Source: Roseovarius gaetbuli
Lineage (GTDB): Bacteria > Pseudomonadota > Alphaproteobacteria > Rhodobacterales > Rhodobacteraceae
NCBI RefSeq assembly: GCF_900172365.1
Contig: NZ_FWFJ01000003.1
Coordinates: forward strand, 1 to 64,000
Length of the DNA stretch: 64,000 nt
Reading direction: 5' to 3'
Shown here: piece by piece, positions 35,724 to 52,084 of the stretch
Layout: each line of letters begins with the position of its first letter
How positions within the stretch are numbered: the first letter of the stretch is position 1
Program-made: the position numbers and the translations under genes
The notes under the pieces: model-generated
What the model was told of the DNA's origin: nothing
Databases searched by the model: none
The model's input: the letters and a program-made list of their open reading frames with translations, nothing else

Positions 35724-37612
35724 TTGGATTTGCGCAGGGGCATTGCAGTCGTCAGGCAATGGGTATTTCCCGCATCAAAGCAGATTGTGCCGCTTGTGAT
35801 CGGGGGGCTGTGCCTCTGGGCTATCGCGCATCGGTTCGACGCCAATAGTCTATCGCAGATCGGCAGTGCGATCCTGGGGCTCGGACCCGCGCAATGGATC
35901 ATGGCGATGCTGGCCACCGGGCTTAGTTTTTGGGCGCTCGGGCGCTATGACGTGGTGGTGCACCGGCATTTGCGCACCGGCTGCGCCCCGCCCATGCCGC
36001 CCGCGTCGGCGCCGCCGCAATTGCACTTGGCCAGGTTATGGGCATGGGCGTGGTCACCGGCGCGCTTGTGCGATGGCGGCTTTTGCCGGGCCTGTCCCTG
36101 ATCGAGACCAGCAAGCTGTCCCTAACGGTGGCGCTCTCGTTCTTCGCCGGGCTTGCGGCGGTTTCTGGGCTTTCGGGGCTGCTTTTGACGCCCCGGTTCA
36201 TGCCTGCCGCATTCTGCATCGGCCTGATATTATTAATTCTTTCCTTTGCCTTACTGGCCTTTCTTCATCCTCGGATTCGGATTTTTGGCCGCCAGGTGAC
36301 GCTTCCGTCACTGCCCGCATTGTGCAAGATAACCGCCCTCACCCTGCTTGATACCACAGCCGCCGCGCTTGCGCTTTATGTGCTGCTGCCCACGGGCCTT
36401 GATATCGGGTTTGCCCTGCTGTTTCCGGTCTATCTGGCCGCGCTGACGGCGGCGCTTGTCACCGGAACGCCCGGCGGTGTCGGGCCGTACGAACTCACGG
36501 CACTCGGGCTTTTGCCTGAGGGGGCCGCGCCAGAGATCATGGCAGGCATTCTCGCCTTTCGCCTGATCTATTATGCCCTGCCGGCCCTGATCGCCGCATG
36601 GTTTCTTTATTGGGGCGAGGCCAATACCACGCCGCCAGTCCGATCAGGGCTAGAGCCCATTCGCGACCTGCCGCAGGACATCAGCCGCGCCGAGCTTGGG
36701 GTTTGCCTGCAAAACGGCGCGCGCCTGTTGAGCGCGGGGCAAACTCGGCTCGCCATCGTCTCGACGGCGCAAACCGAAACCGCGATGTTCGACCCCATTC
36801 GCGGGGCGGCGGCGGCGGGCCTTCCCGGCCTGCTTGCCCTTGCGAGGCGGCGCAACAAGGTGGCGCTGATCTACAAAACAACGCCGCGCGGGGCGGCGAC
36901 CCTGCGCCGGGCGGGTATGGCCACACTTCACATCGCCGATGAGGCGGTGATTGATCCGCAAAAATTTCACCTTCAAGGGCGCAAATTTCGCCAGTTGCGG
37001 CGCAAACTGCGCCAGGCGGGCGAGGCAGGAATCAAGGTAACCCGGGCCGCCGCCCTGCCCCAGGCAGAAATGGCGCGCCTTGACGCCGAATGGCAGGCGC
37101 TCAATGGCGGCGCGCGGGGTCTGTCGATGGGGCAGTTCTGTCCTGATTACCTGCTTCGGCACCATGTTTACCTTGCGTGGCAAAACGATACGCTTGTGGG
37201 CTTTGCAAGTTTTCATTCCTCACATCACGAACGCTGTCTTGACCTGATGCGATCCGCGGCAAAGGCCCCCTCGGGGTGCATGCACATGCTGGTTACCAAG
37301 GCCCTGACCGAGGCCCGCGCCGATGGGCTTTCGCGGGTGTCGCTGGCGGCACAGCCCTGCCTGACGACGGCGCGCGCCACCCTGCCCCGCCTGATCGCGC
37401 GCCGGATTTCCCATCACTCGGGCGCCACCGGCCTCGCCCAATTCAAGGCCAGCTTCGCCCCGCGGTATCAGCCGCTTTATGCCCATGCCAAAAGTTGGCC
37501 CGCCCTGGCGCTTGGGCTTGCCGATCTCAGCCGCGTGATCAACCGCCCCAATCGGAGCCAACCTCACAATTGTCATGAAGAAAATGAGTTTGATTCAAGT
37601 CGGCATATATGA
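35724..37612 (+). pseudogene. mprF: MprF-like lysylphosphatidylglycerol synthetase/flippase, frameshifted
   Basis: MprF proteins add an amino acid to phosphatidylglycerol and flip the product. The N-terminal part (to about 35980) reads in one frame, ending ALGRYDVVVHRHLRTG. The rest reads in a frame offset by two from about 35984 (AHAARVGAAAIALGQVMG) to 37612. The join lies in GC-rich sequence near 35980-36000 and fits a one-base deletion or a sequencing error. The C-terminal half (about 36660-37580) is a DUF2156 acyltransferase domain with FASFHSSHHERCLDLMR. About eight membrane helices are present in total, fewer than in full MprF. The start is TTG at 35724 or 35730; AGGGG sits nine bases before the latter. 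Confidence 0.8.
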
Positions 37613-37647
37613 AAGGAAACGCGCTACACTCAGTTCAGGACAAACCG

Positions 37648-38658
37648 ATGACAAATGCCTTTTCCAAGATGCTGGCTGCACGCGACTGGATTCTCGCCGA
37701 TGGTGCCACCGGGACCAATCTTTTCAACATGGGGCTGGAATCCGGGGATGCACCCGAGATGTGGAACGATCAGCATCCGGACCGGATCGAGCTTTTGTAC
37801 AAACAGGCGGTCGACGCCGGGAGTGATCTTTTCCTGACCAACTCTTTTGGCGGCAATGCCGCGCGACTCAAGTTGCACGGCGCGGCCAAACGTGCGCGCG
37901 AGTTGTCGCGCATTTCCGCCGAGATTGGCCGCGAGGTCGCCGATCGCTACGACCGCCCGGTGATTGTGGCCGGCTCTGTTGGCCCCACCGGTGAAATCAT
38001 GGCCCCGATGGGCGCTCTGACCCATGAACTTGCGGTGGAAATCTTTCACGAGCAGGCCGAGGGCCTGAAAGAAGGCGGCGCCGATGTGCTCTGGCTCGAA
38101 ACGATTTCCGCACCCGAAGAATACAAGGCCGCCGCCGAAGCGTTCAAACTGGCCAATATGCCTTGGTGTGGCACGATGAGCTTTGACACCGCCGGGCGCA
38201 CGATGATGGGCCTGACCTCGGCCGATATGGCCACGATGGTCGACAAGCTTGGCAATCCGCCGCTGGCCTATGGCGCCAATTGCGGGGTTGGCGCGTCGGA
38301 CCTGCTGCGCACCGTGCTTGGCTTTGTCGCCCAGGGCAGCGAGCGCCCGATTATTGCCAAGGGCAATGCCGGCATCCCGAAATACCACGACGGGCATATC
38401 CATTATGACGGCACGCCCGAACTGATGGCCGAATATGCGATTCTTGCGCGCGATGCGGGCGCGACGATCATTGGCGGCTGCTGTGGTACCATGCCCGAGC
38501 ATCTGTCGAAAATGCGCGAGGCGCTGGAAACCCGCCCGCGTGGCGAACGCCCGACGCTGGATCAGATCACCGGTGCGCTTGGGGCGTTTTCCTCGGCTGC
38601 CGATGGCACCGGCGACGACACGCCCGAGCCGCGCCGCAACCGCCGCCGCCGGGCATAA
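37648..38658 (+). CDS. bmt: Betaine-homocysteine S-methyltransferase-like (MetH homocysteine domain)
   Basis: A 336-residue zinc enzyme of the homocysteine methyltransferase family. ILADGATGTNLFNMGL and FGGNAARL begin the barrel, and the zinc Cys residues are in ANCGVGASD and GGCCGTMPEH. It is usually named betaine-homocysteine methyltransferase, but in Rhodobacterales such genes have been shown to be the homocysteine half of a split corrinoid methionine synthase. The corrinoid protein gene 1.4 kb downstream supports that reading. I chose ATG 37648, with AGGAC nine bases upstream. The C-terminal 40 residues are disordered and Arg-rich. Confidence 0.88.
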   Translation: MTNAFSKMLAARDWILADGATGTNLFNMGLESGDAPEMWNDQHPDRIELLYKQAVDAGSDLFLTNSFGGNAARLKLHGAAKRARELSRISAEIGREVADRYDRPVIVAGSVGPTGEIMAPMGALTHELAVEIFHEQAEGLKEGGADVLWLETISAPEEYKAAAEAFKLANMPWCGTMSFDTAGRTMMGLTSADMATMVDKLGNPPLAYGANCGVGASDLLRTVLGFVAQGSERPIIAKGNAGIPKYHDGHIHYDGTPELMAEYAILARDAGATIIGGCCGTMPEHLSKMREALETRPRGERPTLDQITGALGAFSSAADGTGDDTPEPRRNRRRRA

Positions 38659-38722: not shown

Positions 38723-39811
38723 TCACCCGAAAAGCGACATTTGATCGCCCCGTTCGAATGGGCGATCAAACAAATCCGTGCGTAGCTCCGGCTGATCCCG
38801 ATTCAACCCAAGCCGCGCCGCCGCCGCCTCGAACCGGCGCGCGATAAGGCGCGCATAGACCCCGCTACCACGCATGCGTCGGCCCCAATCGGCCTCATAG
38901 TCCTTGCCGCCATGCATTTCGCGCACGCGGTTCATCACCCTGTTCACGCGGTCAGGGTAATGTTCCTGTAACCAGTCCTTAAAGAGCGGCGCCACCTCAA
39001 GCGGCAAGCGCAGCATGATCCAGCTCGCCGCGTCAGCCCCCGCCTCGCGAGCGGCACCAAGCAAGGCCTCGATCTCGTGATCCGTCAGCCCCGGAATAAC
39101 CGGCGAAGTCATGATACGCACCGGCACACCCGCGCCACGAAGCGCGCGAATCGTGGCCAATCGGCGTGCGGGCGACGGCGCGCGCGGCTCAAGCTTGCGC
39201 GCAAGATCCGCATCAAGCGAGGTCACCGAAATACCAACCCGCACCAGCCCCTGCGCGGCCATATCCGTCAGAATATCAAGATCACGCTCAATCAGCGTGC
39301 CCTTGGTCACAATCGCCACCGGATGCCGGAACCGCTGCAACACCGTTAGACAGGCGCGCATGATCTCGCGGTCTCGCTCGATTGGCTGATAGGGATCGGT
39401 GTTGGTGCCGATCGCCATCGGTTGCGGCACATAACGCGGGTGGCGCAACTCTGCATCCAGCAGATCCGCCGCATTGGGCCGCGCAACCAGCCGGGTTTCG
39501 AAATCCAACCCCGGCGACAGCCCAAGCCAGGCATGGGTCGGACGCGCAAAGCAATAAATACAGCCATGCTCGCACCCGCGATAAGGATTGATGGACCGGT
39601 CAAACGGAAGATCAGGCGAGCGGTTATAGGTTATGATCCGCCGCGCCATCTCCTCTGTGACATGGGTGGTCAAGGCTTGCCCGCCCACCGCCTGCGCCCA
39701 TCCATCCGGCTCATAGCGGGTTTCGGTTGCCTCATACCGCCCGGCTGCATTGCTGCGCGCCCCGCGTGCCCTGATCCGCAAATCAGGAGGTATCGTTTCA
39801 CTCTCACCCAT
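38723..39811 (-). CDS. PA0069 family radical SAM protein
   Basis: A 362-residue radical SAM enzyme of the group named after Pseudomonas PA0069. The iron-sulfur cluster Cys residues are in YRGCEHGCIYCFARP (CxxxCxxC), with SAM-binding segments IVTKGTLIERD and SVTSLD. It resembles spore photoproduct lyase-like enzymes, and its reaction is unknown. I chose ATG 39811 (MGESETIPPD), since an alternative at 39829 lies inside a LexA-type box. PA0069 itself is in the Pseudomonas LexA regulon as I recall, so a role in DNA damage is likely. It is divergent from the corrinoid protein gene. Confidence 0.9.
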   Translation of the reverse strand: MGESETIPPDLRIRARGARSNAAGRYEATETRYEPDGWAQAVGGQALTTHVTEEMARRIITYNRSPDLPFDRSINPYRGCEHGCIYCFARPTHAWLGLSPGLDFETRLVARPNAADLLDAELRHPRYVPQPMAIGTNTDPYQPIERDREIMRACLTVLQRFRHPVAIVTKGTLIERDLDILTDMAAQGLVRVGISVTSLDADLARKLEPRAPSPARRLATIRALRGAGVPVRIMTSPVIPGLTDHEIEALLGAAREAGADAASWIMLRLPLEVAPLFKDWLQEHYPDRVNRVMNRVREMHGGKDYEADWGRRMRGSGVYARLIARRFEAAAARLGLNRDQPELRTDLFDRPFERGDQMSLFG

Positions 39812-40024
39812 GGAGCATCCATGGAACATACGGGGAACAAATGCAACGAACTTATATAGTTCATGACAAGTTTGCAGTGGGTTGCACCGCAATTCGTTGC
39901 TATAAGTCGGTTGCAGTGCGGTCAGTGTCGCATTCCGGAAAGTGGACCCGCGACAAATTGTCGAAAGCTGCATAAGACACCAACACTCAGTGCCAATCGC
40001 GCACAGCAATCAAGGATTCCCGAA
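39812..40024. other. Divergent promoter region (radical SAM gene / corrinoid gene)
   Basis: This gap of 213 bases holds the LexA box and a small palindrome GAACT-TATAT-AGTTC at 39848-39862, whose arms overlap the -10-like element of the minus-strand gene. The corrinoid gene promoter must also lie here. No gene is seen, and no cobalamin riboswitch box was recognised. Confidence 0.5.
39824..39838 (-). promoter_or_regulatory. LexA (SOS) box before the radical SAM gene
   Basis: GAAC-ATACGGG-GAAC is a perfect direct repeat of the form GAAC-N7-GAAC, which read on the minus strand is GTTC-N7-GTTC, the LexA site of Rhodobacter and other alphaproteobacteria. It lies 13 bases upstream of the chosen start. 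A TATATAAG -10-like element lies about 20 bases farther upstream, so LexA would sit just inside the transcript start. Confidence 0.75.
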
Positions 40025-40729
40025 ATGTCTGATCAAGAAGACGACATCATCCTGTCGGAACTGGACAACGAAGAGCTTGTTCAGCAGATGTTTGACGACC
40101 TTTATGATGGTCTCAAAGAAGAGATCGAGGAAGGCGTGAACATCCTTCTTGAACGTGGCTGGCAGCCCTACCAGGTGCTGACCGAAGCGCTTGTCGGCGG
40201 CATGACCATCGTTGGCAAAGACTTCCGCGACGGCATCCTGTTCGTCCCCGAAGTACTTTTGGCCGCCAACGCGATGAAGGGCGGCATGGCCATCCTCAAG
40301 CCGCTTCTGGCCGAAACCGGCGCGCCGCGCGTCGGCAAGATGGTGATCGGCACGGTCAAGGGCGACATTCACGACATCGGCAAGAACCTGGTGTCGATGA
40401 TGATGGAAGGCGCCGGATTCGAGGTCGTCGATCTCGGCATCAACAACCCGGTTGAAAAATACCTCGAGGCGCTGGAAACCGAAGCCCCCGATATCCTGGG
40501 CATGTCGGCGCTTTTGACCACCACGATGCCCTACATGAAAGTGGTGATCGACACGCTGATCGAGCAGGGCAAGCGCGACGATTACGTGGTTCTGGTCGGC
40601 GGCGCGCCGCTGAACGAAGAATTCGGCAAGGCCATTGGCGCCGATGCCTATTGCCGCGACGCCGCCGTGGCCGTCGAAACCGCCAAGGATTTCATGGCGC
40701 GCAAGCACAACAAACTGGCCGCAGGCTAA
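40025..40729 (+). CDS. Corrinoid-binding protein of a methyltransferase system
   Basis: A 234-residue protein with an N-terminal helical cap (about 20-95) and a B12-binding Rossmann domain. The base-off cobalamin motif DIHDIGKN supplies the lower-ligand His (DxHxxG), with GMSALLTTTMPYM and VLVGGAPLNEEF as the other signatures. It matches methyltransferase cognate corrinoid proteins and the B12 module of MetH. With the homocysteine protein encoded 1.4 kb upstream it likely forms part of a split methionine synthase. I chose ATG 40025, although the frame is open to 39863. A terminator separates it from the DUF1638 gene. Confidence 0.92.
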   Translation: MSDQEDDIILSELDNEELVQQMFDDLYDGLKEEIEEGVNILLERGWQPYQVLTEALVGGMTIVGKDFRDGILFVPEVLLAANAMKGGMAILKPLLAETGAPRVGKMVIGTVKGDIHDIGKNLVSMMMEGAGFEVVDLGINNPVEKYLEALETEAPDILGMSALLTTTMPYMKVVIDTLIEQGKRDDYVVLVGGAPLNEEFGKAIGADAYCRDAAVAVETAKDFMARKHNKLAAG

Positions 40730-51472: not shown

Positions 51473-52084
51473 TTACGGATTCAATCGTTCAACTTTCCAG
51501 GTTCCACCCGGGGTTGCAGTACGCCAAACAAAACGATCATGAAGGCGAAATGCCCCGTCTGCCCAGAATTCAATCTCAACCGGCGCGATTCTGAAACCTC
51601 CCCAAAAGGGTGGGCGCGACGGGTTCGGGCCCTTTTGGGCGGTGATCTTGGCGACCTTGGCCATCAGGGTTGCACGCGAGTCGAGCGGCTTTGATTGATC
51701 CGAGGCCCAGGCCCCGAGGCGACTCTTGAGGGATCGCGATGCGTAATAGGCGTCGGCCTTGTCGCCCTCTTCGCGCACCACCGGCCCGCGAATGCGAATC
51801 TGGCGGCGCAGCGATTTCCAATGCAGGACCATCGCGGCCTGGCCGTTCTCGGCCAGTTCCCTGCCCTTGGCGCTTGTGTAGTTGGTGTAAAAGATGAACC
51901 CGTCATCGGAGATTTCCTTGAGCAAGACCATGCGCACATTCGGCAGACCGCTTGCGTCGACCGTCGCCAGGGCAACGGCATTGGGATCATTCAGTTCAGA
52001 GGATTCGGCCTCAGCCAGCCAGGTCCGGGCGATCTCGAAGGGGTTGTCGCCTGCGAAAATTCCGTCTCGTTGCATGGTGTTCAT
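51473..52084 (-). CDS. pdxH: Pyridoxamine 5'-phosphate oxidase
   Basis: An FMN enzyme that makes pyridoxal phosphate. Family marks are [52 protein letters not shown] and [15 protein letters not shown], with RLHDRFVWR near the C terminus. The 203-residue length is standard. It is divergent from fabI, with 159 bases of shared promoter region. Confidence 0.96.

Follow-up and report, generated by a model that had tools for sequence, protein, structure and literature searches.

A predicted LexA operator in the promoter of a PA0069-family radical SAM gene of Roseovarius gaetbuli

What is the role of a perfect GAAC-N7-GAAC repeat at the start of a PA0069-type radical SAM gene, and what does it suggest about the enzyme encoded there? 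The question arises in a window of 64,000 nucleotides from Roseovarius gaetbuli (the whole stretch of DNA that was analysed), where an initial annotation had placed such a repeat just before the gene. Both the repeat and its placement are confirmed. The perfect direct repeat reads GAACATACGGGGAAC on the plus strand at 39824-39838 and GTTCCCCGTATGTTC on the coding (minus) strand, and the start codon (ATG at 39811-39809) lies 13 bp downstream of it, with the box starting at -27 from the ATG. The range first given for the site, 39811-39838, extends from the box to the start codon. The gene product matches the NF033668 (rSAM_PA0069) profile over its full length, with 510.4 bits against a cut-off of 360, and also matches the Radical_SAM profile PF04055; its CxxxCxxC motif (C80, C84 and C87) is invariant in 43 sequences. 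We consider it very probable, from comparison of sequences, that the box is a LexA operator in the promoter of a single-gene unit, which would be inducible by DNA damage and whose enzyme would most likely act in lesion repair. The features of the locus are collected in Table 1.

Table 1. Features at and around the PA0069-family gene, in window coordinates.
Feature	Position	Strand	Basis
PA0069-family radical SAM enzyme, 362 aa	38726..39811	-	NF033668, PF04055
Convergent neighbour, betaine-homocysteine S-methyltransferase family	37609..38658	+	profile match
Divergent neighbour, corrinoid protein related to MtgC/MtbC	40025..40729	+	profile match
Predicted LexA operator (SOS box), GTTC-N7-GTTC in coding orientation	39824..39838	-	comparative, predicted
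Putative -35, TTGCAT (family consensus TTGCAA)	39841..39846	-	inferred from conservation, 57 relatives
Putative -10, CATGGA (family consensus YAWWNT)	39818..39823	-	inferred from conservation; 17 bp from -35

The pattern by itself says little. GAAC-N7-GAAC occurs twice in the window against 1.55 occurrences expected, and 85 times in the genome of 4.13 Mb, where a reversed control pattern is commoner, with 182 matches. In neither window nor genome is the bare motif rarer than expected by chance, and raw counting is uninformative, so the meaning of the box had to come from its position and conservation. The second repeat of the window, at 51845-51859, lies within a 203-residue coding sequence resembling pyridoxamine 5'-phosphate oxidase and is most likely a chance occurrence.

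The initial annotation had made its reading depend on a conserved box in relatives, and this is what the relatives display. GTTC-N7-GTTC stands upstream of the PA0069 gene in 57 of 59 same-family orthologues, the window's own gene counted in, and begins 26-29 nt ahead of the ATG in 56 of these 57. Samples from the wider class contain a perfect box in 27 of 30 and 65 of 80 loci (about 92 of 110 together), with kinship at the level of family and class as assigned by the genome search tool. About 15 loci in the sample of 80 are without a perfect box, several of them having an inverted or one-mismatch version; among the class loci of this kind, two carry the box inverted and several are one base off. 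Across 89 loci, the roughly 200 bp preceding the gene contain 87 copies of the pattern, and the other 339 kb contain 8. Spacer variants N3-N6 and N8-N12 occurred 0-5 times each in the upstream regions, and enrichment is seen at N7 only.

The rest of the genome points to LexA as the regulator. A LexA gene is present (TIGR00498, 183 bits against a cut-off of 111), and boxes of the same form precede lexA, recA, imuB, imuA, uvrA and mmcB. A scoring matrix was trained exclusively on the PA0069-gene boxes of other species, with the own genome excluded. Among the genome's 85 matches, this matrix ranked the imuB box first and that of the PA0069 gene second, followed by imuA (4), mmcB (6), uvrA (7) and recA (10); the lexA box came lower, at 19 of 85. 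Because the imuB, imuA, mmcB, uvrA and recA boxes fall within the top ten of this matrix, the PA0069-gene box is best read as a LexA operator, and LexA control of the gene is strongly supported at the sequence level. The earlier assignment as an alphaproteobacterial LexA site is upheld both by conservation in relatives and by likeness to the boxes of these five genes. Two other high-ranking matches lie elsewhere in the genome. A strong LexA-type box on contig C93 (L090:1569-1583, rank 5 of 85) ends directly before the ATG of a gene (L090:1175-1567) for a 131-residue stand-alone OB-fold protein that resembles the C-terminus of the error-prone polymerase DnaE2, possibly a small SOS gene. On contig C45, a DNA cytosine-5 methyltransferase gene (L091:559-1515) has a box near L091:1590 (rank 3 of 85), about 80 bp ahead of its start.

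In other proteobacteria, the gene is associated with a different LexA motif. CTGT-N8-ACAG is present in all 31 of the top gammaproteobacterial loci, nearly all of them Pseudomonas or Stutzerimonas, and lies close upstream of the gene in most halomonad, Marinobacterium and Burkholderia-group loci. The alphaproteobacterial members of that list carry GTTC-N7-GTTC, and crossover with the gamma- and betaproteobacterial motif is almost nil. P. aeruginosa PA0069 belongs to the LexA regulon. The appeal that had been made to this namesake is borne out at the sequence level by the 31 gammaproteobacterial loci, a sample that does not include P. aeruginosa; a search of the open literature for PA0069 together with LexA found no paper. 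Several gammaproteobacterial orthologues, including those of Luteibacter, Rhodanobacter and Dyella, lack every LexA box tested, and a search of xanthomonad-like orthologues for a Xanthomonas-type LexA box found none. Five xanthomonad-like orthologues with none of the tested LexA boxes upstream (L232, L233, L237, L317 and L322) have a common CTGAGAC element shortly upstream of the PA0069 gene.

The bases surrounding the box suggest how an operator at this position could act. Column-wise conservation over 57 promoters reveals TTGCA(A) eight bases before the box and YAWWNT directly after it. In the family layout, 17 bp separate the -35 from the -10 and the A of the ATG lies six bases past the -10; the box occupies the 17-bp spacer between the TTGCAA -35 and the YAWWNT -10 in close relatives. 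This arrangement suggests a sigma-70-like promoter that uses the operator as its spacer, with putative -35 and -10 elements and an expected start point at the ATG. As the start codon coincides with the expected transcription start, and as the stretch between box and ATG is too short to hold a ribosome-binding site, a leaderless mRNA beginning at the ATG at 39811 is the simplest reading of the conserved layout and probably the right one. RNA folding of the start of the message gave nothing unusual in structure. CATGGA is a poor hexamer and a weak -10, and expression may therefore be low on derepression. The TTG-N5-GTTC-N6-TGTTC layout occurs only twice in the genome, at the PA0069 gene and, in identical form, at mmcB, the gene of an SOS-regulated repair protein (MmcB, PF06319) unrelated to the PA0069-family enzyme. 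The mmcB gene (L108:1584-2050, contig C125) displays TTGATT, the box as spacer, CATAAT and then the ATG, which follows the box start by 26-27 nt, as at the PA0069 gene; the mmcB mRNA is probably leaderless too.

Other explanations of the box can be weighed against these data. A chance occurrence of a short pattern would agree with the count in the window, but it is refuted by a position kept in more than 140 orthologues, and its probability is practically nil. The TTGCA and YA that flank the box are conserved in the fashion of promoter elements, which would suit a GTTC repeat that is itself a bare promoter element or the site of a regulator other than LexA. However, one and the same matrix also selects imuA, imuB, mmcB, uvrA and recA, orthologues change to the enterobacterial type of LexA motif where LexA has another specificity, and two GTTCs at N7 only are not demanded of a bare promoter element, all of which makes this explanation very unlikely. 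It could also be argued that the box serves the divergent corrinoid-protein gene, from 40025 onwards, rather than the radical SAM gene, given that the two genes have a common intergenic region and that the family keeps them as a pair. Yet the box is at the start codon of the radical SAM gene, 186 bp from that of the corrinoid gene, and the neighbours change in other orders and classes while the box keeps to the radical SAM gene. Because the neighbours differ between groups and the box does not leave the PA0069 gene, we regard control of the corrinoid gene as extremely improbable.

The PA0069-family gene stands alone between the convergent betaine-homocysteine methyltransferase gene and the divergent corrinoid-protein gene. 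The segment 40025-41448 encodes the MtgC/MtbC-like corrinoid protein and a DUF1638 protein, near the betaine-homocysteine methyltransferase gene. The whole looks like a cluster for corrinoid-dependent methyl transfer that is interrupted by the PA0069 gene, an arrangement conserved in the family. Many other alphaproteobacteria (L110-L139, L251, L302-L314 and others) have genes for a putative ribonuclease HII and a CcrM-type adenine methyltransferase downstream of the PA0069 gene and on the same strand, as judged from sequence; these may be co-transcribed with it and affected by the SOS response.

The initial annotation had likened the enzyme to spore photoproduct lyase (SPL), and the resemblance holds for the fold, but the key cysteine is apparently absent and the SPL profile finds no match. 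In comparisons with a structure model built from 43 homologues (pLDDT 80.8, with some 45 disordered residues at the N-terminus), six SPL entries lead both structural rankings at Z 19.4-19.9, the best reaching 19.9 over 256 residues; lipoyl synthase is the next fold, at 15.1. SPL (PDB 4FHC/4FHF) has the radical SAM fold and the CxxxCxYC motif in common with our protein, at 14% identity. By this model, SPL appears to be the closest fold of the PA0069-family enzyme, although a common fold does not show function. Sequence searches with phmmer and profiles against PDB sequences did not reach SPL. Searched with the SPL profile PF20903, the window protein gives no match up to an E-value of 10, and the best relative tested gave 14.4 bits against a cut-off of 27. 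The SPL-type proteins L335-L337 carry a cysteine three residues before a common D-P motif (SCYTDP or SCYADP), at the position of the hydrogen-donor cysteine numbered C140 in the PDB SPL entries. The PA0069 family reads G[TIVA]NTDP, with T, I, V or A at this position in 43 of 43 members. The hhalign alignment of PA0069 with SPL-type proteins covers residues 168-281 only, so the cysteine comparison rests on a register set by eye on the D-P motif. The 43 family members have no conserved cysteine besides the three of the cluster, and SPL Tyr98, after the third cluster cysteine, is replaced by Phe in 39 of them. The hydrogen-donor cysteine appears to be missing from the family, and together with the mostly lost tyrosine and the unmatched profile this argues for a relative of SPL that is not itself SPL.

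The opposite reading, put forward in 2012, would make the enzyme a true, SOS-inducible SPL orthologue that repairs 5-thyminyl-5,6-dihydrothymine. It can draw on SPL as the nearest solved fold, well ahead of lipoyl synthase in Z score, on the common cluster motif and on the published name splB. The PF20903 result and the substitutions at C140 and Y98, with no extra conserved cysteine, weigh against it. Moreover, the genomes G444, G605 and G612 each encode a PA0069 protein alongside a bona fide SPL, and there the SPL genes (L336, L337 and L335, respectively) have no GTTC-N7-GTTC box upstream. Spore photoproduct is typical of dormant spores with SASP-coated DNA. The bacteria considered here are not known to form such spores, which we count against orthology as well. 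A true SPL is thus unlikely; with the key cysteine apparently absent and the SPL profile unmatched, repair is a fair guess for this enzyme and SPL is not.

LexA control of splB (COG1533) in alpha- and betaproteobacteria was predicted by Sanchez-Alberola et al. in 2012, through two different motifs, GTTC-N7-GTTC in the former and a CTGT-type box in the latter (PMC3323433), and SplB/COG1533 has been called SOS-regulated in several species (PMC8565304). The splB gene of 2012 and the PA0069 gene very likely represent the same gene family. The scope of that study was multi-chromosome species, its protein was called a photolyase/SPL homologue, and its authors saw no gammaproteobacterial case; here, in contrast, the gene falls into the NF033668 family, is also CTGT-boxed in Pseudomonas and halomonads, and encodes a protein in which the SPL cysteine is apparently missing. 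The core SOS regulon of Gram-positive bacteria includes a radical SAM protein (PMC7739468), and a Streptomyces radical SAM protein displays a LexA ChIP signal and a mitomycin response (PMC9380542). The actinobacterial Rv2578c family of radical SAM proteins (NF038135), to which these two may belong, is the second-best NCBIfam match of the window protein at 238 bits, below the cut-off of 430. Measured against the earlier splB reports, the PA0069 finding is a correct, well-supported example of a theme already described. What it adds is the reach of the theme into Pseudomonas and halomonads, the layout of the promoter, and the case for setting the enzyme apart from SPL.

Under LexA control of the PA0069 gene, the reading we prefer, the repressor seated on its operator between the -35 and -10 would block RNA polymerase. 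DNA damage would activate RecA, LexA would cleave itself, and the opened promoter would yield an mRNA that begins at the ATG and is probably leaderless. The enzyme would then most likely use radical chemistry to repair or reverse a lesion in DNA or in a nucleotide. The conserved SOS control fits an inducible DNA-repair role, as foreseen for this group of enzymes in earlier work, and we rate the predicted repair function as reasonably probable; our literature search found no paper giving the substrate of a PA0069-family enzyme. More tentatively, and at somewhat less than even odds, the family may constitute a distinct SOS-induced class of radical SAM repair enzymes with non-SPL chemistry, directed at a common DNA or nucleotide lesion of vegetative cells. 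Such a class would explain why LexA control was kept or regained under unrelated LexA motifs.

Direct-reversal enzymes for DNA damage are few, and it is very unlikely that a radical SAM gene is kept under LexA by accident in alpha-, beta- and gammaproteobacteria, with two operator codes that are unrelated to each other. The operator as a 17-bp spacer, combined with a start codon at the expected transcription start, would be a simple and testable design common to mmcB. Should the absence of the cysteine be confirmed, the separation from SPL would mean that "photoreactivation by SplB" is probably a mistaken label in the literature, and would turn the true substrate of the family into a well-posed question.
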